A stretch of DNA of 64,000 nucleotides from Hysterangium stoloniferum (Eukaryota; Basidiomycota; Agaricomycetes; Hysterangiales; Hysterangiaceae). Numbering within the stretch: the stretch's first letter is position 1; every line of letters starts with the position of its first letter. Of the stretch, positions 18,490 to 63,020 are shown in pieces. Made by a program: the position numbers and the translations under genes. The DNA lies in assembly GCA_015178975.1 (NCBI GenBank), contig WHVD01000068.1:186001-250000 (forward strand), in the 5' to 3' direction. The notes beneath the pieces are model-generated. The model saw nothing but the letters and a program-made list of their open reading frames with translations. It made no database searches and was not told the origin of the DNA.

Positions 18490-21079
18490 ATGGATGGGAT
18501 GGGGATGGAACGGATGGTCGATAGTGTCGGCCAGATGGAGGACTTTGTTTTCAAGAAGTTCAGTGGCTGTGGTGTGGTAAGTGACACCGCAGCACTGTCG
18601 GGGTGTAAGGGTGAGGTTATATATAATATTAGTAATGTGCTGGTTACTTTATATATTATTGTTTAATTGCAATATGGCTCGTAAATATAAAAAATAAATT
18701 ATTAAATAGAACTATTCACAATGTGATATAGCGGTCCTAGAGCATCTAGAACAAGGCCAGGCTAAGTAGCAGACACCTGAGATAGCTAGTCTACACCAAC
18801 TCATTGTAAAAGAAAATTCCACTTAGTAATAGCTGTGCTTTGCCCGTTATACTACCTAGCCAGGGTATGTACATTTCGCGATTTCCTGGTGCGCATGCTT
18901 TGTTTGAAGTGCTTATCCTCAGTCTCACCTTCAGAAATTTGCTTGTTCTTGGAGGAGGACCACCCCGAGTCCGCACGGTGGATATAGGATAAGACATGGC
19001 AGAATCCTTCTGGTTCACACAATATGTGCAAATGAGAAGTGCTTCGGATTATTTCTGGCTTGCCTAGCATGTGTGGGAAAGTATGCTGTGAGATGCCCAA
19101 AGCCTTACACAGCAACCCAGCCGGAATAGGTTTCATGGCAATGCGATGCACACGTTGCCCAATTGCTTATAACAGAGGCATATCGCATTTCGTTTATCGA
19201 TAACCAAGCACTAATGCCCATCACTACCGATTCCCTGCCAAATACCTACGGGATAGACACGATAACTCATATGGCCGACGCTGCAGGGTTACCCCCTACG
19301 TCCCCTTCAGCAGCAGTGACAATTGCCGACTCTCAGCTGGGCAATCAAAATATCATAAGAGTACTGAATGCTAACAAAATGCTCCATGAGCAATGGGGTT
19401 GCGACGAACCAGGCCATGATTTATGCCTACAGGGGGGTCATTATATTGGTCATATCCAGCTGTCTCAAGAGCAGATTTCCATTTGGATAGACGAAATTGT
19501 GGGTCATCTGTTCATTGAAATTCATCATAATTATTATTCACTCATCCAATACCTGATTTCCAAAGTGCCGAGGCCAGGCGACATGCCACTATCCGCCAGA
19601 GGTACTTATTATCCCAGACGGCTCTGGAGCCAATAGGAAGCTAGATTTTGATTGGGGTGCTAGCGAAACGAATATTGACCCAGAACCTGAGATTGGACCG
19701 GGGTATTTTTGTGGACTGGCTCTGGAACGAGTCGGCAGGAGAATGCTTTATTACTCAAAGGTTTCGTTGTTGTTAGCCAAGCTATTGCGTTATAGGCAAA
19801 TTGTGGATCGTTGGCCGCGTCCGTCCGCGCAAAGCCTTGGAATAATATTGCAAGAGACAGTTGATTTAATGCGGTATGAGTTGCAATGTCTTACACGAAT
19901 TTATCGACAACCCTTTGAACATTGAACATCTTCGCAGGCCATCCTACCCACCTTATATTCGAGAACAAGCATCCAACGTTTTTGTCAGTGCCGAATATGA
20001 CATTGATGCACACCGAAGGGATGATTGCCCCCGACTTGTTTTAGAATGGTTAGGTTGGGTATTCCGTTTTTCCGGGTGCGAAGGGTCACCTGAAATTATG
20101 TCAGCACTATATCGAAATCTGACGAGTGCACCCTTGCATATTCATTATGACGAGGTTCTATCCAATTTCGTTGTAATTCTCGCTCGATATCACACTGGCT
20201 CGTGGGAACGGGACAGTGGCGGTCCTTCTGACCTTGCGCATCTCATGCAATATCTCTGTCGTTTACGTAAGCTATCATTCAATGAGCTGAATGCTATTCA
20301 TGATCACTTGGAATCCTGGCTGCAACCAGAGTATGATATGTTGTCAGCATTCTTCACCGAGCTGACTCAAGCCATGCCAGATCCCACCACCCAAGATGGT
20401 CCTACAGCAGAGAGCCTCACTGTATATACTCCCACATGGATGTTTCCATACTATGTTCTCGACAGGATGCACGGTTTCGTATCCTCTTTGAGGCGTTATT
20501 GGATATTGCCCTAGATACCACGATTGGCGCTATATCGCGAGATATTGGGAATGTCTCGTTCCTCTGGCCCCAAGCATGTGCTGTGAATAGATTCTTCAAG
20601 GACAGGGTATTGCTGATAGAGCATGCCAAGAAGATTAATCGAATTGCCTCGTTCATTGCTTTCTATCTACGGCACGTTGCACATGCGCTCTTGTCAACTG
20701 ATATCTTAACTTACCTTCCCCTTCTAGTCATATTTCGATTCAACCCCTCCAATGGGACGCGCTCTATTGGCTTGCAAGCACAATCAAAACCATCATCTCC
20801 CTCATATCAGCTTCTCCCGATCCAGAATTTTCCTGTAGGGAAATACAAGCAGAAAATGTAGTAAACGCTTTCGTCGATTTTTTCTTACATTTCGATTCAT
20901 TTGATTTTCGCCATGGCTACGATCTCAGTGACTATTTACGTTTGAAAAGTGACTCGTACTCCCTCTTACTCCTCATCGCCAATCCATTCACCGGTCCTTC
21001 GGTCCTATCTAGCTCGCATTGCATGTCGATACTGGAGGACAATGGATGGGTCGGAAACGCTCTTTCTCCGTCCAATTAG
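18490..21079 (+). pseudogene. block P gene, copy 1: multicopy hypothetical gene, broken
   Basis: A candidate first exon starts MDGMGMERMVDSVGQMEDF and reaches a GTAAGT donor at 18577. Later pieces are 19163-19636 (GCDEPGHDLCLQGGHYIGHI), 19583-19925 (GPGYFCGLALERVGRRMLYY), 19926-20420 (GSPEIMSALYRNLTSAPLHI) and, after a likely intron 20425-20468, 20469-21079 ending ILEDNGWVGNALSPSN-stop. Breaks include a 7-bp duplication GAACATTGAACAT at 19917-19929 and a frame change near 20715. No domain is recognised. Composition suggests a soluble helical protein. Copies 2 (25868-27563) and 3 (54140-57520) are inverted relative to it. Copies 1 and 3 share the 7-bp duplication and copy 2 does not. Confidence 0.7.
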
Positions 21080-28970: not shown

Positions 28971-29205
28971 ACTTATTCCTTCTTCCATCTTTCTGTACAC
29001 TCGATATTCGGAACTCTTCAGAACTCTGAATATCTGTATCTTCCATTGTAAGTCTTGCCTTTGAAATTAAGGACTTTTGACGGTTTGCGTAGAGGCACAG
29101 CACATATGTAAGCTGAAGCCAATGTCCTGACCCTATTCAATAGTTCCTGACTTCCCGGTGACTTTCCAATAGTTCCAGAATATGTTTCTGACACAGTCCT
29201 TAACA
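28971..29205 (+). repeat. gypsy 5' LTR, truncated
   Basis: Matches the last ~235 bp of the 3' LTR (36298-36530), sharing TACACTCGATATTCGGAACT and the CCTTAACA end. The upstream part of the LTR is absent. Confidence 0.85.
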
Positions 29206-32200
29206 GTATATCAGATCTCAACTCTGCGACTCGCTCATCATGGGTCCCAAACACAAAGCTGCCAAAGGACCATCTCAACTTCAATCCCCATTGCAACTTT
29301 ATACCACCCAACCCAAAACCCCAATTCAGCCGACAGCAGCTTCCATTGAAGAAGTTACTGAGGAAGTTACCGAGAACGAAGGATCCCAATGCTCCCAACA
29401 CTTCCGACAATGAAGTAGAAGAACAACTGATGACATCAAAAAAGAAATCTTCTGATGAACTGACCAAACTGTTGTTTGTCAACTCCATTGTGAAATTCAC
29501 TGACTATTTGAAATCTGCTGAGGAAAGCAAAGAATCATCCCACACTGGAGTCAAAGAACCTGAACCATTTACCAGTAAGGATCTGAAAAAATTGAAGAAT
29601 TTCCTTCTCCAATGCCATTTCAGTTTCCATGATCGACCCACTGCATTTATATCTGACAGTCGAAAAGTCAATTTCGCACTCTCTTATCTCAAGGATACCA
29701 CTCAGGATTGGTTCAAACCCAGACTATCTGGAATATCCGATGAGACACCCATATGGCTTGATGACTGGGACACATTTGTGGAAGAACTGGAAACTAATTT
29801 TGGACCTTACGATCAATCCAGCAAAGTGGAAAATGAATTAATGACGCTTAAGATGAACAATGAATGAGTCTCCGATTATCTCATCAAGTTCAATACCCTC
29901 GCCGCATGATATGGATGGGACAATTCCACCCTCAGGCACCATTTCTATATAGGACTTCCATCATGCCTTAAAGACGAGATCTGCAAAGATGGAAAGCCAA
30001 AAACTCTCCAACTCATGCGGATTAAAGTTCAGACATCTGATGCCCATTATTGGGAATGAAAAGCTGAGGTCTCTTGAGAGAATCTGATGGAACCTTCTCA
30101 GAACAACAAGGCATTGTCTAGCAAGTCTTCTGGCAACAACTCTGGCACTAATACTGACAAATCAAACTCAGATTGGAAAAAAGACAAGAAATCCAACAAG
30201 GAAAAACAGTCAACTTCTGACAAACCCGATATTTCCCATTTGTTGGGCACTGATGGTAAACTCACCCCAAAGGAGAAACAACGATGCATGGATAATGACC
30301 TCTGCCTTTTCTGTGGGAAAGGTGGACACAAGGTTTCCCACTGTACTGTTAAGTCTAACTCTTCCAAGGCCTGCATGGCAACTTCCACTACAACTACCAC
30401 ATCCAAGGAAAAACCTGCCACAGAGTCGAAAAAAGAGTAAGCAACCCTCCAGAATCTGCACAGACAGAGGGTTGCATTGACTCTCTCTGTGTTTCCGAGA
30501 TTATCCATCTCAACACATCTGCTCTCTCTAATCCTGACTCATTATTTGTAAAACTCATCTCTGACCTTCTTGGAAATTTAGTGTTCCGAGCTCTGATAGA
30601 TTCCGGCTCCACACACTGTTTTGTAGATACCACCTTTGCCATGAAACATAATCTGAAACTCCATTCTGTTCCCACAATTTCTTTGCATCTGTTTGATGGC
30701 ACTAGCAATATGGCAATTACCCAAGCCTGCAACATGTCTATCTGGTTCCTGTGTGGAACATCCCAGATGGTTACTTTTTTCGTAAACAATTGGACTCTAG
30801 CTGTTTGGTAGTTCTTGGATACAACTGGCTCACCTGATATAATCCGTTGATTGACTGGGTATTGAGCAGTATTAATTTCCATATTCCTGACACTTCCATT
30901 CCTCCTGCAGCATCTATTCTGGCCAGAGGCTTTTTGGCCTCAACAGCACCTCCGGCTTCTACTGAAACCTCTGAGCCTCCAAAAATCTCTCTCATCAATG
31001 CTTTGGCATTTGTTAGGGCAAGTAAACTGGATGGATTGCAGTGTTTTTCGATCAGCCTAACAGTTGATGAAGTATCTGGACATTTTGCAACTCCAGAATT
31101 ATCCGAGCTAAAAGCTGACCTGGAAGGAGTTCCTGAAAGATACCATGATTTTGCAGATATTTTCAGTAAGCAAAAAGCTGACCGGCTTGCACCAGATAGG
31201 CCATACAACTTAAAAACCAATATTGAGCCTGGTTCAAACCCTCTGTTAGGACCTATTTACCCATTATCCCAATTGGAACTTTCCTCTATTCAGGAGTTCT
31301 TGGATGAACATCTATTGATAGGTTTTATCTGTCCCTCAAAGTCTCCGTATAGAGCGCCCATCCTTTTCATCAAGAAGAAGGATGGTTCCCTTCGACATGG
31401 AAAGATAAGTACCCACTTCCACTCGTTACCGACTTACTTGATGCCCCACAGAAAGCATGGATCTACACCAAAATAGACCTCAAACATGCCTATCATTTGG
31501 TCTGAATTGCTGAGGGTGACAAATGGAAAACTGCATTTCGAACTCACTATGGATCCTTTGAATGGTTGGTTATGCCATTCAGTCTTACCAATGCCCCTTC
31601 CGCTTTCAACATTTTGTTAATGATATATTTTCCAACATGCTTGATATATGTGTTATAGTCTATTTGGATGACATTCTGGTATTTTCTGAGGATCCCACTC
31701 TTCATGACGAACAAGTCTGTGAAGTCTTCTGAAGACTCCGTAAACATAGTCTTTTCGTCAATGGTAAAAAATGCTACTTTGACATGGATTCTATTGAGTA
31801 CTTAGGTTTCATTATCGGAACTGATGGTCTCCATATGGATGAAACCAAGGTTCAAGTTGTCCATGATTGGCCCGAACCACAGAAAGTCAAAGACATTCAG
31901 TCATTTTTAGGTTTCACAAACTTTTTTACCATCATTTCATTCAGAATTACTCAGATATTACAATACCGCTCACTCATCTTACCCCCTAAATCTCAACCAT
32001 GGGTCTTTGACGACAATGCCGCTCTGCTTTCCAGACTTTGAAAAATGCTTTCACTTCCACCCCGATTCTTTCTCATTGGAAACCTGATGTTCTGATTATT
32101 GTGGAAACCAATGCTTCCGATTATGCAATTGCCACAATTCTTTCCATTCAAGATTCTGATGGAGAAATTCATCCAGTTGCATTCCTTTCTCAGACACTGA

Positions 32201-32521
32201 AAGTGTCCGAACTCAACTACAACGTTCATGACAAGGAACTTTTGGCAATTTTTGAAGCTTTCAAACATTGGTGTCATTACCTCAGAGGTTCTGCCACTCC
32301 CATTGACATCATTACCGATCACAAAAATCTCGAATATTTTTCTACCACTAAACTTTTGACCCACCAGCAAGCCCGCTGGTCCGAATTCCTTTCTGCTTTC
32401 AACATGATTATCCATTTCCAACCTGGACATCTTGGTGGAAAATTAGATGCCATGACTCAACGATGGGATGTCTATCCTAAAGAGGGGGAAAGTAACTACG
32501 CTGTTGTTAATCCGCATAACT

Positions 32522-32750
32522 TGAAACTTGTAATCCCGTCGTCAATTGGGATTACTGGCGGTCACACAAGTTGACAGGACCACGATGTATTGTCCAGAGC
32601 AGAACAAGATACAGGCAAGTGCAGCATACGGTAAGATCTAAGGTCCTGAAAACTTCCCAGTTACTTATACCATAAAATGCTGTGATTATGTAATCACGTA
32701 AAACTAAAGGGTCCGTGCGTAAGACTGGGGGCACCAGGATTACAAAACTG
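32522..32750. mobile_element. probable ~220-bp MITE inside the gypsy element
   Basis: Non-coding sequence sits between the RNase H and integrase regions, where gypsy coding sequence would be expected to continue. Its ends show an imperfect inverted match (GAAACTTGTAATCC on the left, GGATTACAAAACTGG on the right). It also holds the palindrome TGATTATGTAATCA near 32682. Target duplication is unclear, so borders are approximate. Confidence 0.45.
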
Positions 32751-34415
32751 GTTTTTACAACACAGCAACTTTCCACATCTATTTGAGCAACTCCCCTCTA
32801 CTATCCAATTATGCGTAGCATCATGATTATGGACATTGAGCAATTACATCAAGATATCCTCTCCGCACTCACTTCTGACCCAGCTCTCAAGCCACACCTA
32901 GAAGTTCCCAATAATCCTGACCAACCCCAATGGTCACAAGACTCTCAAGGTTTTATTTGTCTCAATGGATGTACCTACATTCCAGATTCCAACAATCTCC
33001 GACTCCGTGTACTACAGTACAAACACAATCATCCAATCTCCAGACATTACGGCATTAACAATACTCTTGGTCTAATCCGTAGAGAATATACTTGGCCCAA
33101 CCTCCAAGATTTCATAACCCAGTTCTGTAAGTCATGCACCACCTGCTTACACTCTAAAACCCAGCGACATAAGCCATACAGCCTTCTCAAGCAACTTCCA
33201 ATACTGTAAAAACCCTGGAACTCAATTTCCATGGATTTTATTGAACAACTTCTGACTTCTGAAGGCTTTACATCCATACTAGTTGTTGTAGATCAATTCT
33301 CAAAACAAGGCATTTTCATACCCACTCACAATACAATCACATCCTTACAGTTAGTGGAACTTTTCATTATTCACATATTTTCCAAACATGGTGTGCCATC
33401 TCACATAACTTCCAATTGAGGCTCCAAGTTCATCTCCCATTTCTTTCAGGCCCTCAGAAAAGCCCTTGACATGAAATTACACTTCACCTCAGGATATCAT
33501 CCAGAAGGTGACAGACAAACGGAATGCGTTAATCAAACACTGGAACAATATCTCCACATCTATTGCAACTATCAACAGGACAACTGGAAATCCCTTCTTC
33601 CAATCGCGGAATTCACCTACAATAACTCTCTGAATGCAACTACTGGCATCTCTCCCTTTTTCGCCAACAAAGGCTATAATCCAAATCTCACAGTACATTC
33701 CAAACAAGATTTGGCTTCTATCCGCACTCGAGAATTTATTACTGACCTTGACGAGTTACATCAAGAACTTCGGAAAGCTATTTCTTCCGCCCAGGAATAT
33801 TATCAATGTTCCACAGACAAAAACAGGATCCCACCTCCTAATTCTAAAATTGGTGATCAGGTTTTTGTAAAAGCTCAATTCTTCCGAACTACACAACCTT
33901 CCAAAAAACTTGCTGAGAAATTCTTAGGCCCTTTTGAAATTATAGCACAAGCCAGTTCACTTTCATGGACTCTCCGACTTCCTGATAGTATGCGAGCAGT
34001 CCACCCTGTTTTCCACGTTTCCATGTTAGAACCTTGCATTCCTAACAATATCCTGGAATGTATTCAACCTCCACCCCATCTTTGACAGAGAACCTGAATT
34101 TGAAGTTTCCGAGATCTTGGATTCAAAAATCGACAATCACCGACATACTTGTAAATTGCTCTATCTAGTCAAATGGGCAGGTTATGAAGGTACCGACAAG
34201 GAAACTTCATGGATATTGGCTACAGAACTTGGACACACTATGCAAAATTGTTAACGACTTCCACACAGCTTATCCGAGTAAACCTGGACCTTTATACTCA
34301 CTCTAACCTTTTTTCTGTTTTCTTTCTGTTCAGTCTCCAACACTTCCAACACTTCTGATACTTCCAATATCACATTCATTTTTAGGTTTTGCAAGTCAAA
34401 AAAGTATTATTGGCA

Positions 34416-35480: not shown

Positions 35481-35732
35481 TGAAGTATGGCAATTTCGGC
35501 ATCTGAATCTTCCAGGGTAGTGGTGAACAATGGTCGACATATCAACATACAAGTTGTGGATAAAGAAACAAAATCATTAATTTGAATATTTAGAGGTTTT
35601 TATACTCAGAGCAGCAGCCAAAACTCTCACCTCCAGAATTGCATAAAATCCACGACACATAATGATCAGCCATCACTTCAATCACTCAGTACCTAATCAC
35701 CTCTCTGGGACTTCAGCCTAACAGGGGGGTAC

Positions 35733-35976
35733 TGTTAGATTATATAATACCAACTATTGTTCCAACTGGGTCCATATGGTGTACAGCTCTGAGTTCAGTG
35801 TGTAAATGATCTAATAGGAATGGCACTTAGGGTTATATCCCTAAGTACAGTGTAAGACCAAACCTACCCAAGGTCAGATGGTGTAGTGGTTAACACCTTC
35901 ATTATGTAATTGAGAGATCCTGGGTTCAATCCCCAGTCTGGCTATTCATTTTCTACATTACTTATGTTTTCTAACA
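35733..35976 (+). mobile_element. 244-bp solo LTR carrying a tRNA-like sequence (TSD GGTAC)
   Basis: Begins TGTTAGATTATATAATACC and ends GTTTTCTAACA (perfect TGTTAG/CTAACA ends). It is flanked by GGTAC on both sides (35728-35732 and 35977-35981) and inserted exactly at the junction of the gypsy polypurine tract and 3' LTR. It contains a 72-nt tRNA-like sequence at 35872-35943. Both ends match the 66-bp LTRs of the miniature array at 55143-55880 (read on the minus strand): TGTTAGATT-T-TAATAC at the start, and CCCAGTCTGGC-ATTCATTTTCTACA near the end. It therefore looks like a longer LTR of the same family. Confidence 0.85.
35872..35943 (+). tRNA. tRNA-like sequence inside an LTR (Thr-UGU-like, probably not a working tRNA)
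   Basis: 72 nt fold as a cloverleaf. The acceptor is GGTCAGA/TCTGGCT with two G-T pairs. The D arm is GTGT/ACAC, the T arm CTGGG-TTCAATC-CCCAG, and the variable loop 5 nt. The A-box match is TGGTGTAGTGG and the B-box match GGGTTCAATCC. A TTTT run follows 6 nt after the end. The anticodon arm is weak: 4 of 5 pairs, anticodon TGT in loop TATGTAA, so position 33 is A rather than the near-universal T. Pol III transcription is plausible, decoding is doubtful. Confidence 0.6.
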
Positions 35977-35981
35977 GGTAC

Positions 35982-36530
35982 TGTTACGACCCATTCCCAG
36001 ATGTTTCAATATCCGACTTCCAACTTCCAACCTCCAACTATGGAACATCATAGTTACCGTATCTTCTGCCCTCTTCCCTTGTTCCACATTTGGTAATTTG
36101 TCTGTTGACAAGCATTCACTCATTTGTTATTATATTCCGATCTTGGAATATTGTCTCCCCAATTCGTCTTGTTGTATTTCCATTTCAGAATACTCCAATT
36201 TCTGTCTTATTGTGGCATTAGTTTGTAGTACAATAACGAGAAGATTTATATTAGTTTCCACAAATTTGTACTTTACTTTAGATCTGATATCAACTTAGTT
36301 CTTATTCCTTCTTCTGTCTTTCTGTACACTCGATATTCGGAACTCTTCAGAACTCTGAATATTCATATCTTCCATCGTAAGTCTTGCCTTTGAAATTAAG
36401 GACTTTTGAGCATTTGCGTAGAGGCGCAGCACATAAGCTGAAGCCAATGTCCTGACCCTATTTGATAGTTCCTGACTTCCTGGTGACTTTCTGATAGTTC
36501 TGGAATAAGTTTCCGACATGGTCCTTAACA
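35982..36530 (+). repeat. gypsy 3' LTR
   Basis: 549 bp from TGTTACGACCCATTCC to GTCCTTAACA (TG...CA). Its last 235 bp match the truncated 5' LTR. The true start is here and not at 35733, because the intervening 244 bp are a separate insertion with its own GGTAC duplication. Confidence 0.85.
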
Positions 36531-36759: not shown

Positions 36760-36972
36760 AGAGTCAAAAAACTGCCCCAATGTGTGATTATTTTGCTTGA
36801 TTTATTGAGCACTGTGTTCTGATTGGAATCACATGATTTCTTAAGTTGATAGATAGCCAATAAGTTCTAGTATATCATGTGAATTTTTCAGAATCTTTGC
36901 TGATGTCATTCCTTCACACAATATCAATCTTTCTAAAATGCACAAACATTGGGGCAGTTTTTTGACCCACTG
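36760..36972. mobile_element. ~212-bp MITE with TA-type ends, left end imperfect
   Basis: Left end GAGTCAAAAAACTGCCCC and right end GGGGCAGTTTTTTGACCC-ACTG are inverted repeats. TA follows the right end (36973-36974) and precedes the left. The right end CAGTGGGTCAAAA and the TA context are typical of Tc1/mariner derivatives. The left end lacks the first bases. LTR sequence resumes immediately to its right. Confidence 0.6.
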
Positions 36973-38089
36973 TATAGTTCCCATACTTCCATATCTTCCC
37001 CTTGTTCTGCATTTGGTAACTTGTCTGTGGACAAGTATTCACTCATTTGTTTATTGTATTCCTGTTTCGGAATAATCTTTCCTTAGTCCATCTTATTGTA
37101 TTCCCATTTCAGAATACTCCTGTTTCCATCTTATTGTGGTCTTAGTTTGTAGTACAATAATGAGAAAACTTATATTAGTTTCCACAATTTGTACTTTACC
37201 TTAGATCTGATATCAACTTAGTTTCTTATTCCTACTTTCTTTCTACAGTGACCTCAAAAACCCTTTCCATGTTGACCCCAAATGCAGCGTTTGAAGAGCA
37301 CCACCTTACAGCATGGGAATTATGCTTAGCTTTGGTGGAGTCATACATAGTACAGCCTCTTGGCTACAATATTGCTCCCTGGGTCACATGATTCCGATCA
37401 CAGGGTATAGAGATATGATTAATTAAAACAGCAATACCATGGAAAGGGTTTTTGCACTTTTGAACTGAACAGGGTATTTACATATTATCAGTACTTGGTA
37501 TAACCACCTTTTGCTTTAAGCACTGCCTGGAATCAAGAAGTGTGGAAGTGTGAGAACTTCTTTTAAACTCAGACATACTATTTACATGTATATATCTATT
37601 TGTACCAACAAATAATAGCCATTATTCTATGATTTGACTGAGATCCTAGTCATCAGTTCAAAAGTGCAAAAACCCTTTCCATGGTATTGCTGTTTTAAAT
37701 TAATCATATCTCTACACCCTGTGATCGGAATCACGTGACCCAGGGAGCAATATTGTAGCCAAGAGGATGTACTATGTATGACTCCACCAAAGCTAAGTGT
37801 AATTCCCATGCTGTAAGGCGGTGGTCTTCAAACACTGCATTTGGGGTCAACATGGAAAGGGGTTTTGAGGTCACTGTATATGCTTGATATTCAGAATTCT
37901 TTGGAACTCTGAATATACATACTCTTCTGGCGTAACTTCCATCTCTGAAATGAAGGACATCCCGAGTGTTTGTGTAGAGGTGCAGCACATAAGCTGAAGC
38001 CAACATCCTGAACCTATCTTGAGGTTTCCAAGTTCCTGGACATTTCCCAATAGTTCCAGAATAAGTTCCCAACATGGCACTTAACAGTT
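36973..38089 (+). repeat. second, partial gypsy LTR, split by a foldback element
   Basis: 36973-37245 plus 37877-38089 together match the 3' LTR of the main gypsy element from ATAGTT... to ...CACTTAACA, more diverged than the main element's own LTR pair. The first part of the LTR is missing on the left. No internal gypsy sequence was recognised to its right. It is an old LTR remnant. Confidence 0.75.
37246..37876. mobile_element. 631-bp foldback element with ~223-bp inverted arms (TA duplication)
   Basis: Left arm 37246-37468 starts CAGTGACCTCAAAAACCC. Right arm 37654-37876 is its inverted copy with roughly 5% differences. The 185-bp loop is non-coding. TA flanks both ends (37244-37245, 37877-37878), and the intact gypsy LTR at 36330 shows the empty TTTCTGTACACTC target. 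CAGTG ends and the TA duplication indicate a Tc1/mariner-type non-autonomous element. Arms this long can form a stable hairpin in RNA or single-stranded DNA. Confidence 0.88.
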
Positions 38090-39596: not shown

Positions 39597-42500
39597 TCAA
39601 GGGGAAGTTTCTCCACTTCCATTAGGGGATGCTGTTAGTAGAGGATTACAAAAGTGCCCTCCCTGAGCATTTAAGTCAGGACCAGCATCAAGGAAGAGTT
39701 TCACAACCTCTACACTACCAGTAGAGGATGCTGCTAGTAGAGCATTGCCAAAGTACGATGCATGGGCTTCAAAGTCAGTGGCAGCAAGGAGGACTTTCAC
39801 AACCTCTACCCTGCCAGTAGAGGATGCTGCTAGCAAAGCATTGCAAAAGTAGTGTCGATCAACATCAATGTCAGCACCAGCCTCAAGGAGGAGTTTCACA
39901 ACCTCTGCATTTCCCATACAGGCTGCTGCTGTTAGGGCATTGCCAAACAACCCTTGATAGGCATGCAGGTCAGCACCACCCTCCAGGAGAAGCTTCACAA
40001 CCTCCACCTCTCCACTAGAGGATGCTGCAATTAAGGCATTGTCAAAGTCCCCTCCCTGGGCATGCAGGTCAGCACCAGCCTCAAGGAGGAGTTTCACAAC
40101 CTTCACACTTCCAGAGTAGGATGCTGCTATTAGGGCATTGCCAGAGTGGCCAGCTTGGGTATGCAAGTCAGCACCAGCCTGAAGGAGGAGTTTCACAACC
40201 TCCACATTTCCATGGGAGGATGCTGCTATTAAGGCATTGCCAGAGTCCCCTTCCTGGGCATGCAAGTTAGCACCTGCTTCAAGGAGGAGTTTCACAATGT
40301 GCACATTTCCAGCAGAGGATGCTGCTATTAGAGCATTGCCAGAGTCCCCTCCCTGGGCATGCAAGTCAGCACCAGCCTCAAGGAGTAGTTTCACAACCTC
40401 CACACTGCCATTGGAGGATGCAGCTATTAGAGCATTGCCACAAAACCACCCCTGGGCATGCAAGTCAGCACCAGCCTCAAGGAGGAGCTTCACAACCTCC
40501 ACATTTCCCCTAGAGCATGCTGCTATTAGGGCAGTACCTGAGTTCCAGAAATAGGAGTGCAAGTCAGCACCAGCCTCAAGGAGGAGTTTCACAACCTCCA
40601 CACTTCCATGAGAGGATGCTGTTATGAGAGCATTGCCAGAGTCCCCTCCCTGGACATGCACATCAGCACCAACCTCAAGGAGGAGTTTCACAACCTCCAC
40701 ACTTCCTATAGAGGATGCTGCAATCAGGGCATTGGGAAAGTACCCTCTATGAACATGCAAGTCAGTACTACCCTGTAGGAGGAGCTTTACAACCTGCACA
40801 TTTCCAGTAGAAGATGCTGCTATGAGAGCATTACCATAGTCAGCACCAGCATGCAGGAGAAGCTTCATGACATCCACATGTCCAGCAGAGGATGCTGCTA
40901 TTAGAGCATTGCCATAGTCCACACCAGCCTGCAGGAGGAGCTTCACACCTTCCACATTTCCTGTAGTGGATGATGATATTAGGCCATTGCCAAAGTCACC
41001 TCCCTGGGCATGCATGCCAGCACCAGCCTCAAGGAGGAGTTTCACAACCTCTATGCTTCCATTAGAGGAGGCTACAATTAGAGCATTGCCACAAAACCAC
41101 CCCTGGGAAAACAAGTCATTACCAGCCTCAAGGAGAAGCTTTACAACCTCCACATTTCCCTTAGAGCAGGCTGCTATTAGGGCATTTCCTGAGTCCCAGA
41201 TATACACATGCAAGTCAGCACCTGCCTCAAGGAGGATTTTCACAACTTCCACACTTCCATTAGAGGATGCTGCTATTAGAGCATTGCCACAGAATGGCCC
41301 CTGGGCATGCAAGTCAGCACCCACATCAAGGAGGAATTTGACAACCTCCACACTTCCAGCAGAGGATGCAGCTATTAGAGCATTGCCAGAGTACCCTACC
41401 TGGGTGTGCAAGTCAGCACCAGCCTCAAGGAAGAGTTTCACAACTTCCACACTTCCATTAGAGGATGCTGCTATTAGAGCATTGCTACAAAACCATGCCT
41501 GCGCATGCAAGTCGGCACCAGCCTCAAGTAAGAGCTTTGCAACCTCCATATTTCCCCTAGAGCATGCTGCTATTAGTGCATTACCTGAGTCCCAAAAAGA
41601 GGCATGCAAGTCAGTGCCAGCTTCAAGGAGGAGTTTCACAACCTCCACACTTCCATGAGAGGATGCTGCTATCAGAGCATAGCCAAAGGGTCCTTCATGC
41701 AAGTCCACATCTGTCTCAAGGAGGAGCCTCACAATGTCAATCCTTTCATTCAAGGATGCTGCTATTAGTGCCTTTCCAATGTGCCCTCCTTGTGTAGGCA
41801 AGTCAGCACCAGCCTCAAGGAGGAGTTTCACAACCCCCACCCTTCCATTACAGGATGCTGCTATGAGAGAATTGTCATAGTGCCCTTCATACAAGTCAAC
41901 ATCTACCTCAAGGAGGAGCTGCACAACCTCAACACACCCCTGTGAGGATGCTTCTATTAGTGCCTTGCCAAAGTGCCCTCCTTGTGTCTGCAAGTCCACA
42001 CCAGCCTGAAGGAGGAGTTTCACAATGTCCACAGTTCCATTAGAGGATGCTGGTATTATGGCATTGCCATAGTCAGCACCAGCTTCCAGGAGGAGCTGTA
42101 CAGCCTCAACATTTCCAGCAGAGGATGCTGCTATTAGAGCATTGCCAAAATGGCCTCCCTGGGCATCCAAGTCAGCACCAGCCTCAATAAGAAGCTTCAC
42201 AACTGCCACCTTTCCTGTAAAGGATGCTGCTATTAAGGCATTGCCACAGTGCCCTCCCTGGACATTCAAGTCAGCACCAGTCTCCAGGAGGAGCTTCACA
42301 GTCTCTACACTTCCAGCAGAGCATGCTGCTATTAGCCCATTTCCCAAGCCCCCTCCCTGGGCATTCATGTCAGAACCAGCTGCAAGGAGGAGCCTTACAA
42401 CCTCCACATTTCCAGTAGACGATGCTGCTATCAGAGCATTGCCAAAGTGGCCTCCCTGTGCATGCAAGTCAGCACCAGCCTCAATAAGAAGCTTCACAAT

Positions 42501-45500
42501 CTCCACCTTTCCCATAGAGGATGCTGCTATTAGGGCATTGCCAAAGTACCCTCCCTGGGCATGCACATCAGCACCTGTTTCAAGGAGGAGGTTCACAACC
42601 TCTACACTTCCAATAGAGGAAGCTGCTATGAGGGCGTTGCCAAAGTACCCTCCCAGGGCATGTAAGTCAGCACCAGCATCAAGGAGGAGTTTCACAACTT
42701 TCACACTTCCAGTAGAGGATGCTGCTATTAGAGCATTGCCAGAGTGCCCTACCTGTCCATCCAAGTCCGCCCCAGCCTGAAGGAGGAGTTTAACAACCTC
42801 CACACTTCCAGCAGAGCATGCTGCCATTAGAGCATTGCCAGAGTGCCCAACCTGAGCATGCAAGTCAGCACCAGCCTCAAGGAGGAGCTTTACTACCTCC
42901 ATGTGTTCCATAGATGATGTAGCTAAGACCATTCCTGCAGAGGATGCTGCTACTAGGGCATTCCCAAAGTACCCTCCCTGGGCATGCAAGTCAGCACCCA
43001 TCTCAAGAAGGAATTTCACAACCTCCACACTTCCTATAGAGCAAGCTGCTATTAGGGCATTGCCAAAGTACCCCCCATGGGCATGCAAGTCAGCACCAGC
43101 TTCCAGGAGGAGTTTCACAACCTCCACAGTTCCAGTAGAGGATGCTGCTATTAGAGCATTGCCATAGTCAGCACCAGCATCCAGGAGGAGCTTCACAACC
43201 TCCACATTTCTAGCTGAGGATGCTGCTATTAGAGCTTTGCCAAAGTGCCCTCCTTGGGTATGCAAGTCACCACCAGCATCCAGGAGGAACTTCACAACCT
43301 CCACATGGCCAGCAGAGGATGCTGCTATTAAAGCATTGCCAAAGTGCCCTGCCTGGCCATGCAAGTCAGCACCAGGTTCAATGAGGAGCTTCACAACCTG
43401 CACCTTTCCCTTCCAGGATGCTGCTATTAGAGCCTTGCCAAAGTATCCTCCTTGTGTATGCAAGTAACCACCAGCCTCAAGGAGAAGTTTCACAACCTCA
43501 ACACTTCCATTACAGGATGCTACTATTAGAGCATTCCCATAGTTAGCACCAGCCTCCAGGAGGGCCTTCACAACCTCCACATTTCCAGTAAAGGATGCTG
43601 CTATTAGGCTATTACCAAAGTCCACTCCCTTGGCATGTATGTCAGCATCAGCATCAAGGAGAAGATTCATAATCTCAACACTTCCAAAGCAAGATGCTAG
43701 TAGTGCATTGCCAAAGTGTCCTGCCTGGGCATGCATGTCAGCACCAGCCTCAACAAGAAGTTTCACAACCTCCAGCTTTTCTGCAGAGGATGCTGCTATT
43801 AGGGGATTTCCAGACACTGCTACTTGGGTATGCAAGTCAGGACAAGCCTCAAGGAGGAATTTCACAAGCTCCACATGTCCATTAGCAGATGCTTCTATTA
43901 GAGCATTACCCAAGTGCCCTGCCTGGGTATGCAAGTCAGCACCAGCTTCAAGGAGGAGCTTCACAACCTCCACCTTTCTGCTAGAGGATGCTGCTATTAA
44001 GGCATTTCCAGGGACACATATCTGGCTATCCAAGTTAGCACCAGCTGCAAGGAGGAGTTTCACAACCTCCACACTACCACCACTGGATGCTGCTATCAGA
44101 GCATTACCACAGAACCACCCCTGGGCATGCACATCAGCCCCAGCTTCAAGGAGGAGCTTCACAACCTCCACATATCCCCTAGAGGATGCTGCTACCAGGG
44201 CATTGCCTGAGTCCTGTATCTGGGTATGCAAGTCTACACCTGCCTCCAGGAGGAGTTTCACAAGCTCCACACTTCCATTCCATGATGCTGCTATTAGAGC
44301 ATTGCCACAGTCCCCTCCCTGGGCGTCCACATCAGCACCAGCCTCCAGAAGGAGCCTTGCAACCTCCACACTTCCATGTGAGGATGCTGCTATTAGAGCA
44401 TTGCCACAGTCCCCTCCCTGTGCATGCAAGTCAGCACCACCATGAAGGAGAAGCTTCACAACCTCCACTTTTCCACTTGAGGATGCTGCTACTAGTGCAT
44501 TGCCAAAGTACCCTCCCTGGGCATGCAAGTCAGCACCAGTCTCAAGGAGGAGCTTCACAACCTCCACACTTCCAATGGAGGATGCTGCTATTAGAGCATT
44601 GCCAAAGTACCCTCCCTGTGCATGCAAGTCAGCACCAGCATCAAGGAGAAGTGTCACAACCTCTACACTCCCATTAGAGCATGCTGCTATTAGTGCATTA
44701 CAAGAGTGCCCTACCTGGGCATGGAAGTCAGCACCAGCCTCAAGGAGGACCTTCACAATCTCTACACTGCCATTAGAGCATGCTGCAATTAGAACATTGC
44801 CAGAGTCCTCTACCTGGGTATTCATGTCAGCACCAACCTCAAGGAGGAGCTTCACAACCTTTACACTTCCATGAGATGATGCTGCTATTAGAGCCTCACC
44901 AAAGCCCCTCCTTTGGATATCCAAGGCAGTCCCAGCCTCAACAAGGAGCTTCACAACCTCCACCTTTCCTCCAGAGGATGCTGCTATTAGTGCATTACCC
45001 AAGTGCCCTCCTTGTGTATGCAAGTGAGCACTAGCCTCCAGGAGGAACTTCACAACCTTTACACTTCCAGCAGAGGATGCTGCTAGTAGTGCCTCACCAA
45101 GATCTCTAACCTGGGCATGCAAATCAGTATCAGTCCCCAGAAGGGGCTTCACTCCCTTAACCTTTTCTCTAGAGGATGTTGCTATTAGGGCATCACCAAA
45201 GTGCCCTCCTTGTGCATGCAAGTGACCACCAGCCTCCAAGAGGAACTTCACAACCTCTACACTTCCAGCAGAGGATGCTGCTAATAGTGCCTTGCTAAGA
45301 TCTCCAACCTGGGCATGAAATGCAGTATCAGCCCCAAGGAGGAGCTTCAAAATCTCCACCATGTCTCCAGGTGATGCTGCTATCTGGCCATTGCCATAAT
45401 GCCCTCCCTGGGCATGCAAGTTAGCACTGCCTTCAAGGAGGACCTTCACAGCCTCTACACTTCCCTCAGAGCATGCTGCTATTAGAGCATTGTCAAAGTG

Positions 45501-45878
45501 TCCTCCCTTGGCATGCACATCACCACTGGCCTCAACCAAAAGCTTCTCAATCTCAATCTTTCCTCTAGAAGATGCTGTTATTTGGGCATTGCCAGAGTCC
45601 TCTACCCGGGTTTGCATGTCAGCAACAGCCTTAAGGAGGAGCTTTACAACCTGAACACTTCCATGAGAGGATGCTGCTATTAGTGCATTGTCAAAGTGCC
45701 CTCTCTGGGCATGCACATCAGCACCAGTCTCAAGGAGGAGTTCCACAACCTCCACACTTCCAACAGAGGATGCTGCTATGAGAGCACTGCCAAAGTACCC
45801 TCCCTGGGAATGCAAGTCAACACCAGCTTCCAGGAGGAGCTTCACAATCTGCACACTTCCATTAGAGCATGCTGCCAT
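39597..45878 (-). CDS. NLR-like receptor, C-terminal part: giant ankyrin-repeat array
   Basis: 2,093 codons, all ankyrin repeat: 64-65 units of mostly 33 residues, consensus GNALIAASSxGSVEVVKLLLEAGADLHAQGGxF. With the 2-3 units just upstream the receptor has about 67. Five units (for example ...EAGADY|GNALIAASS) are only 26 residues. The frame is uninterrupted over 6.28 kb and ends NGSGETSP-stop. It is continuous in sequence with the upstream NB-ARC/TPR frame, separated only by the 16-bp duplication, and is almost certainly the same gene. Ankyrin arrays are ligand-sensing ends of many fungal NLRs. The near-identity between units suggests recent expansion or homogenisation. A start codon inside a repeat (45878) is unlikely to be a real independent start. 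Open plus-strand frames over this region are shadows of the repeat. Confidence 0.92.
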   Translation of the reverse strand: MAACSNGSVQIVKLLLEAGVDLHSQGGYFGSALIAASSVGSVEVVELLLETGADVHAQRGHFDNALIAASSHGSVQVVKLLLKAVADMQTRVEDSGNAQITASSRGKIEIEKLLVEASGDVHAKGGHFDNALIAACSEGSVEAVKVLLEGSANLHAQGGHYGNGQIAASPGDMVEILKLLLGADTAFHAQVGDLSKALLAASSAGSVEVVKFLLEAGGHLHAQGGHFGDALIATSSREKVKGVKPLLGTDTDLHAQVRDLGEALLAASSAGSVKVVKFLLEASAHLHTQGGHLGNALIAASSGGKVEVVKLLVEAGTALDIQRRGFGEALIAASSHGSVKVVKLLLEVGADMNTQVEDSGNVLIAACSNGSVEIVKVLLEAGADFHAQVGHSCNALIAACSNGSVEVVTLLLDAGADLHAQGGYFGNALIAASSIGSVEVVKLLLETGADLHAQGGYFGNALVAASSSGKVEVVKLLLHGGADLHAQGGDCGNALIAASSHGSVEVARLLLEAGADVDAQGGDCGNALIAASWNGSVELVKLLLEAGVDLHTQIQDSGNALVAASSRGYVEVVKLLLEAGADVHAQGWFCGNALIAASSGGSVEVVKLLLAAGANLDSQICVPGNALIAASSSRKVEVVKLLLEAGADLHTQAGHLGNALIEASANGHVELVKFLLEACPDLHTQVAVSGNPLIAASSAEKLEVVKLLVEAGADMHAQAGHFGNALLASCFGSVEIMNLLLDADADIHAKGVDFGNSLIAASFTGNVEVVKALLEAGANYGNALIVASCNGSVEVVKLLLEAGGYLHTQGGYFGKALIAASWKGKVQVVKLLIEPGADLHGQAGHFGNALIAASSAGHVEVVKFLLDAGGDLHTQGGHFGKALIAASSARNVEVVKLLLDAGADYGNALIAASSTGTVEVVKLLLEAGADLHAHGGYFGNALIAACSIGSVEVVKFLLEMGADLHAQGGYFGNALVAASSAGMVLATSSMEHMEVVKLLLEAGADLHAQVGHSGNALMAACSAGSVEVVKLLLQAGADLDGQVGHSGNALIAASSTGSVKVVKLLLDAGADLHALGGYFGNALIAASSIGSVEVVNLLLETGADVHAQGGYFGNALIAASSMGKVEIVKLLIEAGADLHAQGGHFGNALIAASSTGNVEVVRLLLAAGSDMNAQGGGLGNGLIAACSAGSVETVKLLLETGADLNVQGGHCGNALIAASFTGKVAVVKLLIEAGADLDAQGGHFGNALIAASSAGNVEAVQLLLEAGADYGNAIIPASSNGTVDIVKLLLQAGVDLQTQGGHFGKALIEASSQGCVEVVQLLLEVDVDLYEGHYDNSLIAASCNGRVGVVKLLLEAGADLPTQGGHIGKALIAASLNERIDIVRLLLETDVDLHEGPFGYALIAASSHGSVEVVKLLLEAGTDLHASFWDSGNALIAACSRGNMEVAKLLLEAGADLHAQAWFCSNALIAASSNGSVEVVKLFLEAGADLHTQVGYSGNALIAASSAGSVEVVKFLLDVGADLHAQGPFCGNALIAASSNGSVEVVKILLEAGADLHVYIWDSGNALIAACSKGNVEVVKLLLEAGNDLFSQGWFCGNALIVASSNGSIEVVKLLLEAGAGMHAQGGDFGNGLISSSTTGNVEGVKLLLQAGVDYGNALIAASSAGHVDVMKLLLHAGADYGNALIAASSTGNVQVVKLLLQGSTDLHVHRGYFPNALIAASSIGSVEVVKLLLEVGADVHVQGGDSGNALITASSHGSVEVVKLLLEAGADLHSYFWNSGTALIAACSRGNVEVVKLLLEAGADLHAQGWFCGNALIAASSNGSVEVVKLLLEAGADLHAQGGDSGNALIAASSAGNVHIVKLLLEAGANLHAQEGDSGNALIAASSHGNVEVVKLLLQAGADLHTQAGHSGNALIAASYSGSVKVVKLLLEAGADLHAQGGDFDNALIAASSSGEVEVVKLLLEGGADLHAYQGLFGNALTAAACMGNAEVVKLLLEAGADIDVDRHYFCNALLAASSTGRVEVVKVLLAATDFEAHASYFGNALLAASSTGSVEVVKLFLDAGPDLNAQGGHFCNPLLTASPNGSGETSP

Positions 45879-46104
45879 TAGAGCATGCTGCCATTAGAGC
45901 ATTGCCAAAGTCCCCTCCATGGGCATCTATGTTAGCACCAGTGTCAAGGAGGAGCTTCACAACCTTTATACTTCCAACTGAAGATGCTGCTATTAGGGCC
46001 TTGCCATAATAGTCTCCATTCTGGGTATGTGTCTCAGTACTGACCCCAAGCATCCATTTCACAGTATGTAAGTTTCCCTGGTAACATGCTGCTATTAGGG
46101 CCTC
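39612..46104 (-). repeat. ~99-bp tandem repeat array encoding ankyrin units
   Basis: About 67 tandem units of 99 bp (five short ones of 78 bp). Larger repeats are visible. The three-unit set with WDS/WNS...WFC boundaries appears at array units 44-46, 48-50 and 55-57. Another paired set (VGDL/VRDL ... GGHF/GGHL) occurs at units 6-10. Variation clusters at the residue after AASS or AACS, the one before VE, and the last four residues of each unit. Confidence 0.9.
45861..45892. repeat. 16-bp tandem duplication that breaks the NLR frame
   Basis: ATTAGAGCATGCTGCC occurs twice head to tail (45861-45876, 45877-45892), followed by ATTAGAGC again. With one copy the upstream frame ...GNALMAACSNGS would run directly into VQIVKLLLEAG of the array. 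With two, the upstream frame ends at a stop. It may be a slippage event, a real inactivating allele, or an assembly error in a repeat. Confidence 0.85.
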
Positions 46105-49100
46105 AGCATACCCCTTTTCCTGGCCATACATATCATCCCCAGTCTCAAGGAGATTCACATCACTTGCATCTTCATCCCAGGAAGTTCCCACATCCATTGC
46201 TTTACCAGTAGCAGCCTCATGAATGTATAGGGCTTTGGTATTCTGGTTTCCCTTTATTGGAACCTTTTCCTGATATTTAAATTTCAAGCCAATGTTTCCT
46301 ATTCTCCACAATCGCATATGATGTGTCTGATGATTAGTCCAATATTTTGCCATCTGTGTATACTCTTGGAATTGGTGTAGATCATTATAATGACCTTGCC
46401 ATATAAAGGTCACAACTTCATCATTTATAGTGGACAATTTGGTAGTGTCTTCTTGACCAGCCAAACTTTCTATATCTTGCCATAATTGCTTCTCTTTGTT
46501 TTCATTAACATCTCTTATTTGGCTTCTCAAAATTCCTAGTAAATTTTCTTTGGCCCACAGAGTATCAGGATGCCCACAACCCCAAATCCTTTTCCTTATC
46601 TCCAGTACTTCTTTTTGTAATATCTCAGCTTTCGAGTACTCCATTTTCCACATATAGGTCAAAGCTAAGTTTCCCATGCTTTGTAGTGTGTCTGGATCTT
46701 CTGGACCAAGAGTTGTCTTTTTTGCTTCCAGTACCTTGGTTTGTAATACCTCTGCCTCAGCATACAGTCCCTGATAATGATATGTCAATGCTAAATTCTG
46801 CATTGTCTCCAATGTGAGTGGATGGTTTGTACCACGTGTATTCTCTTTGGTACCCAGAACCTGAAGTTGAAACTCTTCTGCTTTCTTATACTCTCCTCTC
46901 TGAATGAAACTCAATGCCAGGTTGCTCATTGTCTCCAATGTATCAGGATCCTCTTTGCCAAGAAACCTCATCCGAGTTTCCAAGACCTGTAGCTGAAGTT
47001 CATGTGCCTTGACATAATTACCAGAGTCCCAAACTATACATGCTAACAATGCCTTTGCATTCAATGTCTCACGATGATCTAGACCAAGTATCCATTCACG
47101 CATAAGTGATACCTTTTTCTGAAGGGTCTCTGTTTCTTTCCAGTATCCATTTGTATGGAAAACCATGGAAAATTGTGCATATTCATCATCATGGTAGATT
47201 TCCTTTCCATTGATTTCCATATTTGAATGTCTATATGCAATAACATGTGGTAAAATCATTCGATGAAAAGGAGGATCTGATATCAGAGGCACAGATCTCA
47301 CAAGCAGCACCCTGGCTGATGCCACCAATGTAGAATGGTTTGAAGTAACTCCTTTATTTCTTGCCCATAAATGTACCACAGGGTGAATGGTCCAGGAAGG
47401 AATACCTGTACTTGAGTCCCTTGTCAGGAGTGAATAATCACATAGGAGTTGCATGGCTCTCCTAAACCTCAAATTACACCAGTGACGATCCTCATCACAT
47501 TCAAGGAAGTGAGTTGGGAGGTGATGCAAGTCTCTTTTTGTAGTTCGGAGTCGATCATCCTGTATTGGCCATTCAGGTGCTTCCGCAGCCTGCTGAAAGA
47601 TTGTTTCAGTGATATTTTGATGATGAAAAAATCCTAGCATCTTCAAGATAAACAGTGCCTCTTTTGTAGCCTCATAGCTTTTGCACTCTATCCAATCATA
47701 CGAGATGTTTAATGCCCCAAAAACAGTTTGATTGTATTGTGATGCACCTCGATATGATGGATGAAGTCCATCTAGAATGGCTAGTTGGTGTTTGACATAG
47801 ATAACACTATAATCTGCAACTGTGCACAATCCTGTGCGTATTGCAGCACCAGCTACATCCAGGGCCAGTGGCAGAAAACCAAGAATCTTTGCAATGCCTT
47901 GTAATAATCTATAGGTTAAACTGGTAATATCTTCTGCCTGTTCTGCAGCTCTTTTGAGGAGCATAAGTGCATCCTCTTCCGTCATCACTTGAACATCAAT
48001 GGCACTAGTCACAGACTGTCGTAGCTCAGGATTTCTGCTAGTAATCAAAAGATCCACTTCATGTGCCATAGGCAGATAATGAGTAACCTCATCAGCCATG
48101 CCATCGGCATTGTCAAATATCAATAGACAACGACTGCCTTGTTCTGAAATCCAGGCTAAAACATCATCACCTGTCCTTTCAATACCCAACAGCTTATTAG
48201 CAAAATTAGTTTTAGCAATGTTACTGAAACTTGTCTCCAGTGTCTCCTTCGTTGTGGCATCAAGCCAAAATATCCTCCAATAGCTGAGCAGCACAGCATG
48301 TCAGTATTCGTTGAGAATAACATTAGATTTACACACATATTGTTTTTTGCACACTGCTCTGCAAACCTTAGACATATCTGTGTCTTTCCAACACCGCCCA
48401 TGCCATACAAAAGTAAATGCTTCGGACTGATTGTTACCTCATTATATGTGAAGAATTTAGACAACTGGTCCAAGTAGTTGTCTTGACCGGTGAACCTTGG
48501 GCTAGATATTAGTTTGGGTTTGTATGAAACCCCTTCATTCTTGGCATCTACCATTGAGCTGTAAGATGAGTGGTTTTAACGAGGAATAGAGACATACTTT
48601 GTGTGTGGCTACCCTCACCAGCATCTTGGATCTGTATTGGCCCGGGTAACTGGCAAGACATGACATATAACATTGTAGCTACTGTAGTGAAGTCCTCATC
48701 TGCATGGGAGGCAAACCTGACCATTTCATTGTGGCTCTTATTCAACCCTATAGATTCGGCGTTGGTGGTGCCTGGTACCACGGCGGATGACTTGGGCACA
48801 ATCTAAATGCGTATTAGCTAAAAGCATCGGAAGATGGAATTTGCGGAACTCACTATCTCTGAAGTTCCATCGTGCAAAGAAGTTGGATACATTTCATAAA
48901 GAAATTTAGTGAATAAACCGGTGCTAATACCATTGGACAGAGATAACTGGATAGACAGCATCTCAGAGTTGGATGCCAAATGTTTCAACAAAGGGTGAGC
49001 GGTATTTTCATCAAGCGGTAGGATTTTGAGGAGTTGAGAGGCAGAGAGTGTAATATCAGCGCCTTGTCCCCATGAATAATATGCCATATGTTGATTGTAA

Positions 49101-54480: not shown

Positions 54481-55142
54481 TACCCTGTCCTCGAAGAATC
54501 TATTCACAGCATATACTTGGAGCTGGAGGAAGCAGTCAAACTCCCTATGTCGCAATGTAGCGCGAATCGTGGTACCTAGGGCAATATCCAATAACGCCTC
54601 AGAGAGGACATGAAACCGTGCATCCTGTCGAGAGCATAGTATGGAAAGATCCATGTGGTAGTATATACAGCGAGGCTCTCTGGTGTAGGACCGTCTTGGG
54701 TGGTGGGATCTGGCATGGCTTGAGTCAGCTCGGTGAAGAATGCTGACAACATATCATACTCGGGTTGCAGCCAGGATTCTAAGTAATCATGAATAGCATT
54801 CAGCCTCATTGAATGATAGTTTACGTAAACAACAGAGATATCGCATGAGATGCGTAAGCTCAGAAGGAAAGCCACGATGGTCCCGTTCCCACGAGCCCGT
54901 GTGATATCGAGCGAGAATTACAACGAAATTGGATAGAACCTCGTCATAATGAATATGCAAAGGTGCACTCGTCAGATTTCGATAGAGTGCTGACATAATT
55001 TCAGGCGACCCTTCATACCCGGAATGATGGAATACCCAACCTAACCATTCTAAAACAAGCTGGGTGCAATCATCCCTTTGGCGTGCATCATCGATAGCGT
55101 CGAAGTCGCTAAAAACGAGGGATGCTCGTTGTCGAATATAAA

Positions 55143-55880
55143 TGTTAAAAGTGTAGAAAATGAATGGCCAGACTGGGAAAAGTAGTGCTAGTATTACACA
55201 ATCTAACACACTCCCTTAATACTAGCACTCAACTATATTGTAATATATGCAAATATAGGTCCTCTCTGGCTCTTTTTTGTCCAGACTTGTCCACTATACT
55301 ATACATACACAAATATAGCTGTTCACTCTACACACAGGAACCATGCCCTATAGCATACAGCGGGGCCCATAACCTGTTAAAAGTGTAGAAAATGAATGGC
55401 CAGACTGGGAAAACTGTGCTAGCATTACTCAATCTAACACACTCCCTTAATACTAGCACTCAACTATATTATAAGCAGATATAGGTCCTCTCTGGCTCTT
55501 TTGTCCAGACTTGTCCACTATACCACACAGAAATATAGCTGTTCACTCTACACACAGGAACCATGCCCTATAGCACACAGCGGGGCCCATAACCTGTTAA
55601 AAGTGTAGAAAATGAATGGCCAGACTGGGAAAACTGTGCTAGCATTACTCAATCTAACACACTCCCTTAATACTAGCACTCAACTATATTATAAGCAGAT
55701 ATAGGTCCTCTCTGGCTCTTTTGTCCAGACTTGTCCACTATACCACACAGAAATATAGCTGTTCACTCTACACACAGGAACCATGCCCTATAGCATACAG
55801 CGGGGCCCATAACCTGTTAAAAGTGTAGAAAATGAATGGCCAGACTGGGAAAAGTAGTGCTAGTATTACACAATCTAACA
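55143..55880 (-). mobile_element. tandem array of miniature LTR retroelements (TRIM): four LTRs, three internal segments
   Basis: LTRs at 55143-55208, 55375-55439, 55595-55659 and 55815-55880 (65-66 bp, read on the minus strand TGTTAGATTGTGTAATAC...TTTTAACA in the outer pair) alternate with internal segments of 166, 155 and 155 bp. Each internal segment starts with primer-binding site GGTTATGGGCCCCGCTG (half initiator-Met tRNA type) and ends with a purine tract TTAAGGGAGTG. One target duplication ATAAA (55138-55142, 55881-55885) brackets the entire array. Block P copy 1 shows the empty site. The outer LTRs are alike, while the two inner LTRs form a second type, as expected if a multi-unit RNA was copied and inserted as one. 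It is non-coding and non-autonomous. Confidence 0.92.
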
Positions 55881-62652: not shown

Positions 62653-63015
62653 TGTTGTAATATATAGTCCCTAAGAAGAGCTCAGTCTCGTATAAGTATA
62701 ACGGACTCTATATAATGTGTACCTAAGAAGAGCTATTGTATACAGTAAGCGCATATACTATGAGAAAAAAGGATTGTTCTGTGCTCACCTCAGTCTCGTA
62801 TAAGTATAACGGACTGAGGTTAAGCTATGTTGGTTATCCCTTTATATATTCTACACGAACAAAGGTACCATGTGCTCATATGTGAGACGTATGGATGAGT
62901 GGAGCCTGATCGTGACGACCGGTCATGTTGTCACCACACCGGTATCACCGTTATTCAGACAGTCCCCAAATATGTTGACCCTGCCACATATATGCGGTGC
63001 CTTTTGTCTTCAACA
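62653..63015 (-). repeat. copia 5' LTR (right end), 363 bp
   Basis: TGTTGTAATATATAG ... TCTTCAACA on the plus strand. It contains a near-duplicated internal motif (CTCAGTCTCGTATAAGTATA appears twice, about 62682 and 62788). It is intact relative to its partner. Confidence 0.92.
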
Positions 63016-63020
63016 CAATG

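Follow-up and report, generated by a model that had tools for sequence, protein, structure and literature searches.

The 64-kb stretch of DNA that we analyzed (the window) holds a 244-bp solo LTR, a Ty3/gypsy element, a tandem TRIM array with related LTRs, Copia sequences and a gene region for an NLR-like protein (Table 1). The 244-bp LTR is of the TG...CA type, reading TGTTAG from 35733 and CTAACA up to 35976, and is flanked by the 5-bp TSD GGTAC; identical 5-mers at this spacing are rare in the window, with 111 instances among 63746 positions (0.17%). No second full copy of the LTR was found by blastn across the 64-kb window, no PBS or PPT adjoins either end, and no window paralog crosses the insertion junction as an empty site. 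The original prediction, which described a 244-bp solo LTR with these ends and a GGTAC duplication, can be read directly in the sequence, and the solo state is presumably the product of LTR-LTR recombination.

Table 1. Coordinates of the elements and their parts within the window
Feature	Position	Strand	Basis
244-bp solo LTR, Helenus-type TRIM	35733-35976	+	TGTTAG...CTAACA ends, 5-bp TSD, end homology to array LTRs
Left TSD GGTAC	35728-35732	n/a	sequence
Right TSD GGTAC	35977-35981	n/a	sequence
tRNA-derived sequence, Thr, anticodon TGT, position 33 = A	35872-35944	+	ARAGORN, Rfam RF00005, fold
A-box match TGGTGTAGTGG	35879-35889	+	regular-expression scan
B-box match GGTTCAATCCC	35923-35933	+	regular-expression scan
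First T4 run 3′ of tRNA, possible weak Pol III terminator	35949-35952	+	scan
Second T4 run 3′ of tRNA	35967-35970	+	scan
Ty3/gypsy 3′ LTR (start inferred)	35982-36530	+	36301-36530 vs 28972-29205, 89% match
Tandem TRIM, LTR-int-LTR-int-LTR-int-LTR (L4I3), related to 244-bp LTR	55143-55880	-	TRF, dissection, empty sites
Array LTR1, 66 bp	55815-55880	-	dissection
Array LTR2, 65 bp	55595-55659	-	dissection
Array LTR3, 65 bp	55375-55439	-	dissection
Array LTR4, 66 bp	55143-55208	-	dissection
12-nt tRNA 3′-end remnant CCCAGTCTGGCC	55838-55849 (LTR1), also in LTR2-4	-	alignment, blastn
PBS GGTTATGGGCCCC, directly 3′ of LTR1	55802-55814; also from 55594, 55374	-	dissection
PPT-like internal end AAGGGAGTG, purine-rich, one T in tract, 5′ of LTR2	55660-55668	-	by eye
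Array TSD TTTAT	55881-55885 and partner 55138-55142	n/a	sequence, empty sites
Copia PBS, 13 nt identical to array PBS	1206-1218	-	sequence comparison

The solo LTR sits inside older repeat sequence. Since 36301-36530 matches 28972-29205 at 89%, a Ty3/gypsy element spans the region of the 244-bp LTR, and ORFs lying between 29151 and 34085 encode gypsy domains by Pfam, including an RT_RNaseH domain in ORF 32011-32574 and a Tf2-1-like SH3 domain in ORF 33420-34085, with a gag-like ORF (29151-29867) scoring slightly below the Pfam cut-offs. A purine-rich gypsy internal end lies to the left of the 244-bp LTR, and to its right TGTTACGACC opens the gypsy 3′ LTR, the start of which we could only infer because the corresponding 5′ LTR is truncated. 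Given this position at the junction of the gypsy internal region and 3′ LTR, the 244-bp LTR is a nested, younger insertion. Two small inverted-repeat structures lie nearby. One, at 36763-36966, has 32-nt arms (87.5%) and stands between two copies of gypsy LTR sequence, and the other, at 37244-37878, is a foldback element within a gypsy-like repeat, with two arms of ∼226 nt that are 95.6% complementary and apparently TA on both flanks (by eye), possibly a Tc1/mariner-type miniature element.

Within the 244-bp LTR, and oriented as the LTR is, lies a tRNA-derived unit of 73 nt. ARAGORN calls it as tRNA-Thr (anticodon TGT) and calls no second gene in the window, and RF00005 scores it at 47 bits (gathering 29, E 6.7e-7), which is the sole Rfam match at gathering in the window. 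Its A-box and B-box matches, TGGTGTAGTGG and GGTTCAATCCC, are the single A-B pair spaced ≤100 nt in a regular-expression scan of both window strands. A tRNA-like unit in the LTR sense, with A- and B-box matches and a TTTT run just downstream, had been predicted; all of this stands apart from the length, which had been given as 72 nt. The predicted fold is not exceptional (z -1.15, with 23 of 200 shuffles equal or better), and the anticodon arm has decayed, with an A rather than a T at position 33 and a T-T in place of one stem pair. Because of these two departures, the unit probably does not function as a tRNA, and it calls for caution in tRNA annotation, as it scores as a tRNA yet is transposon-borne. 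That a true host tRNA-Thr gene happens to lie next to an unrelated repeat, making the LTR reading accidental, is hardly credible: the ARAGORN and Rfam scores would suit such a gene, but A33, the mismatched anticodon-stem pair, the TG...CA ends within a TSD and the homology of both ends to an element with its own TSD and empty sites all speak against it.

The element to which both ends are homologous is the tandem TRIM array. Its outer LTRs, LTR1 and LTR4, are identical at 66/66 positions, and its inner LTRs, LTR2 and LTR3, are identical to each other and differ from the outer pair. The three internal regions (155, 155 and 166 bp) each run from GGTTATGGGCCCC to AAGGGAGTG, which together with the LTRs gives a summed unit of 285-298 bp; no stand-alone unit was seen in the window. 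When the array flanks were fused with one TTTAT removed and used as the empty-site query, two paralogs were found to be uninterrupted, 19687-20248 (83%) and 27260-26722 (79%), the site reading CTTAT in the former and TTTAT in the latter, and therefore the whole array sits in a single insertion site. These empty sites, the TTTAT TSD and the identical outer LTRs indicate that the array apparently moved by retrotransposition. The pattern of outer and inner LTRs is the one predicted for reverse transcription of a multimer RNA, which would copy both outer LTRs from one template, but recombination with another copy at a later date could also have produced it.

None of the array LTRs contains an A box or a B box by regular expressions, or a tRNA match by ARAGORN or Rfam. 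The internal regions do carry an A-box-like TGGTATAGTGG, with TAGTATAGTGG in the third region, and regular expressions find no B box accompanying it. A second tRNA in the internal regions was considered and rejected: a permissive Rfam search returned no tRNA there, its two matches being to other families and both below gathering, and local alignment between internal region and tRNA was no better than chance, with shuffles as good in 338 of 2000 cases for the first region and 981 of 2000 for the third. A weak resemblance of the first internal region to the U3 of the 244-bp LTR, matched by 53 of 2000 shuffles, was discounted in view of the several tests made. We also observed, at 55184-55228 (-), that GTGCTAGTATTA, close to where the internal region ends, is exactly reverse-complementary to TAATACTAGCAC of the outer LTR type, a 13-nt match through which the junction of the PPT and 3′ LTR at LTR4 could form a hairpin.

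We compared the 244-bp LTR with the array to understand how the tRNA came to be in one and absent from the other. In a blastn search of the window, the 244-bp LTR matches each of the four array LTRs at 25/26 positions (E 1.9e-6 each), and these are its sole other significant places. A 22-nt LTR-start pattern, derived from the sequences of the 244-bp LTR and array LTRs themselves, occurs with at most three mismatches at five places, the 244-bp LTR and the four array LTRs, against 0.01 expected. In a global alignment of LTR1 with the 244-bp LTR both ends match, 56 of 64 aligned bases are identical and there is a single 170-nt gap; the score of 69 compares with 37 for the best among 1000 shuffles. 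Importantly, the array LTRs retain a 12-nt piece, CCCAGTCTGGCC, that corresponds to the 3′ strands of the T and acceptor stems in the tRNA and is identical to the 244-bp LTR at 11/12 positions. Counted by hand, all 12 positions pair with the 5′ strands of the 244-bp LTR, one of them as G-U, and the last base yields G1-C72 where the 244-bp LTR itself has G1-T72. Had these 12 nt predated the tRNA, the chance of 12/12 pairing would be ∼8e-6, by a hand estimate of (6/16)^12. Because the array LTRs keep these pairing-competent 3′ strands, the tRNA most likely belonged to the LTR of this family from early on and was deleted in the array branch, not inserted later in the other.

The opposite history, in which a tRNA gene or SINE landed by chance in an ordinary solo LTR at a later date, is very improbable. 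It draws on the fact that a single LTR in the window, itself solo, bears the tRNA, while the four related LTRs (4/4) lack the tRNA body, and the original prediction had held that copies without the tRNA-like part would point to just such an insertion. Taken literally that is what the array LTRs are, but the pairing of their 12-nt remnant with the 5′ strands of the 244-bp LTR indicates deletion rather than insertion. A duplication of the tRNA unit's own, which had been named as the other mark of a later arrival, is not clearly present either: between the 60 nt upstream and the 32 nt downstream of the unit the longest exact direct repeat is 5 nt, the modal value in 2000 shuffles. We thus read the 244-bp LTR, as had been proposed, as the LTR of a small non-autonomous family with a tRNA built in, whose 3′ end persists in the array LTRs.

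Both the array and the Copia sequences of the window carry information on priming. The array PBS, GGTTATGGGCCCC, matches 11 of 13 bases of what we take to be the complement of the tRNA-iMet anticodon arm, using the yeast rather than the host sequence, and includes ATG, which is complementary to a CAT anticodon. At the left edge of the window, a Copia element with an LTR at 1219-1430 (start placed by eye) and gag (PF14223) in ORF 3-350 shares 14 bases of the PBS region with the array. A blind search of the window gives this match an E of 0.091; it carries weight because it lies directly after the LTR end in both elements. Against a link, the left-edge Copia LTR matches nothing else in the window and shows no similarity to the TRIM LTRs; LTRs are likewise dissimilar in the best Copia-Helenus pair of Kojima 2024 (PMC10886601). 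We regard the left-edge Copia as a candidate for the type of autonomous partner that the TRIM might use. A second Copia has repeats at 62653-63016 that correspond to pieces of 57527-58568, and a near-match to the PBS, GTTTATGGGCC. These long repeats (-) are 97-98% identical, and the 3′ LTR is split by ∼0.67 kb.

The original prediction knew of no fungal family of this kind, but one has been described: Helenus, the name given by Kojima 2024 (PMC10886601) to TRIMs with tRNA-like LTRs, with 113 families in Pucciniales (rust fungi) and others in Agaricomycetes, animals and one plant. According to its main text, Helenus families are 311-1263 bp long and consist of two LTRs enclosing a short internal part that carries a PBS and a PPT; fungal members have 5-bp TSDs, solo LTRs are reported, and the PBS is mostly directed at the tRNA-iMet anticodon loop (half-tRNA-iMet), similar to that of Copia. 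Among the fungal families only 15 have a predicted tRNA, of the His or Thr type; most families have an A box of TRGCY, and a role of the captured Pol III promoter in mobility is left without experimental validation (PMC10886601). The defining feature, a tRNA-derived sequence with A and B boxes inside the LTR, is found in the 244-bp LTR, with GGTTC in its B box and YGG in its A box. With the 5-bp TSD GGTAC, the tRNA-Thr type and the solo state also in agreement, the 244-bp LTR is very likely a further member of a kind already described. It differs from most families in an A box that starts TGGTG instead of TRGCY (PMC10886601).

The array relative resembles fungal Helenus in its 5-bp TSD, TTTAT. 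It has LTRs, a PBS and a PPT-like tract, and its PBS may be of the Copia-like tRNA-iMet type; the tRNA-bearing copy, as a solo LTR, has no PBS. Tandem arrays are also mentioned for one zebrafish Helenus family (PMC10886601). Unlike Helenus, the array no longer has the tRNA, and at 285-298 bp its unit falls below the lower limit of 311 bp (PMC10886601). Judged by the tRNA that sets Helenus apart, it lies outside the group, and we class it as a tRNA-less TRIM that probably derives from the lineage of the 244-bp LTR.

Other known systems share parts of this anatomy. The comparison with plant Cassandra elements, made in the original prediction, is apt: these also carry the sequence of a Pol III small RNA within the LTR and form tandem LTR/internal arrays (PMC7215508). 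The Cassandra sequence is 5S rRNA, whereas that of the 244-bp LTR is tRNA-derived, and the likeness drawn here is one of anatomy; no Cassandra-type 5S rRNA in an LTR was found among the Rfam matches of the window at gathering. The TRIM Ajax of nemerteans likewise has an LTR with a Pol III-type sequence, but the sequence is a partial 5S rRNA and the host an animal (PMC10886601). SMART/FRetro129 of grasses is similar to the array in its tiny LTRs, 5′TGT...ACA3′ ends and 5-bp TSD, and differs as a plant element of 292 bp with 85-bp repeats, against the 65-66-bp array LTRs (PMC3281118). The TA-TRIMs of plants include L3I2 and L5I4 forms with TSDs, comparable to the L4I3 of the array (PMC4717578). 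The descriptions of SMART/FRetro129 and the TA-TRIMs drawn on here contain no mention of a tRNA remnant (PMC3281118, PMC4717578).

We consider it very likely that these observations have a joint explanation, in which the 244-bp element is the solo LTR of a Helenus-kind TRIM with an old tRNA in its LTR, a proposed Pol III/Copia route of movement and a tRNA-less relative. Pol III would start at ∼35872 in the tRNA-derived unit, and the transcript would extend past the weak T4 runs in the 5′ LTR to end at those in the 3′ LTR, resulting in an RNA with an R repeat of roughly 80-100 nt made up of the tRNA and a few bases. Cassandra, with multi-unit RNAs that read through LTRs, offers a precedent (PMC7215508). 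Half-tRNA-iMet could then prime at the PBS just 3′ of the LTR, with reverse transcriptase supplied in trans by a Copia element, whose integrase would insert the copy and give the 5-bp duplication. In the array lineage, the tRNA body would have been lost by a deletion of ∼170 nt with retrotransposition retained.

The promoter step of this route has a competitor that shares all of the anatomy, namely that the tRNA is an inert passenger in a Helenus-like element and that Pol II or read-through drives the family, which we think unlikely though worth weighing. The T4 runs just 3′ of the tRNA could halt Pol III before it reaches the internal region, and the sole relative in the window moved without A or B boxes, and therefore it must use another promoter or depend on read-through or outside transcription. 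Against an inert passenger, the A and B boxes of the 244-bp LTR match the consensus despite the decay of the anticodon arm, a retention that agrees with A/B-box conservation across Helenus families (PMC10886601), although one copy cannot show selection. The tRNA-bearing and tRNA-less elements offer a natural comparison for asking whether a captured Pol III promoter drives mobility.

For the array itself, the balance tips slightly towards a history in which an internal LTR deletion removed the tRNA promoter from a Helenus lineage, leaving a SMART-sized tRNA-less element that moved once as a mixed trimer of two subtypes. If true, the array would serve as a naturally occurring deletion experiment, indicating that mobility does not require the captured tRNA, and could provide a path from TRIMp3, TRIMs with a functional Pol III promoter, back to ordinary TRIMs. 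In the open-licence PMC literature, the main text of Kojima 2024 included (PMC10886601), we found no tRNA-deleted Helenus derivative that is still mobile.

A single 64-kb window supports a Helenus-type element, with a tRNA that is old in the LTR, in a probable fungal genome. Element patterns gave no exact match to viral contigs or to bacterial and archaeal genomes, collections that hold no fungi, as expected for a eukaryotic element. Apart from the repeats, the window has at 39597-48300 (-) a gene region for an NLR-like protein, in which TPR repeats precede a long ankyrin run, the ankyrin repeats lying in a 2098-aa open frame within a 99-bp tandem repeat array. Its NB-ARC-like motif was read from the sequence and has no Pfam match. 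The NLR-like gene, together with the Ty3 and Copia content, would fit a filamentous fungus and perhaps an agaricomycete.
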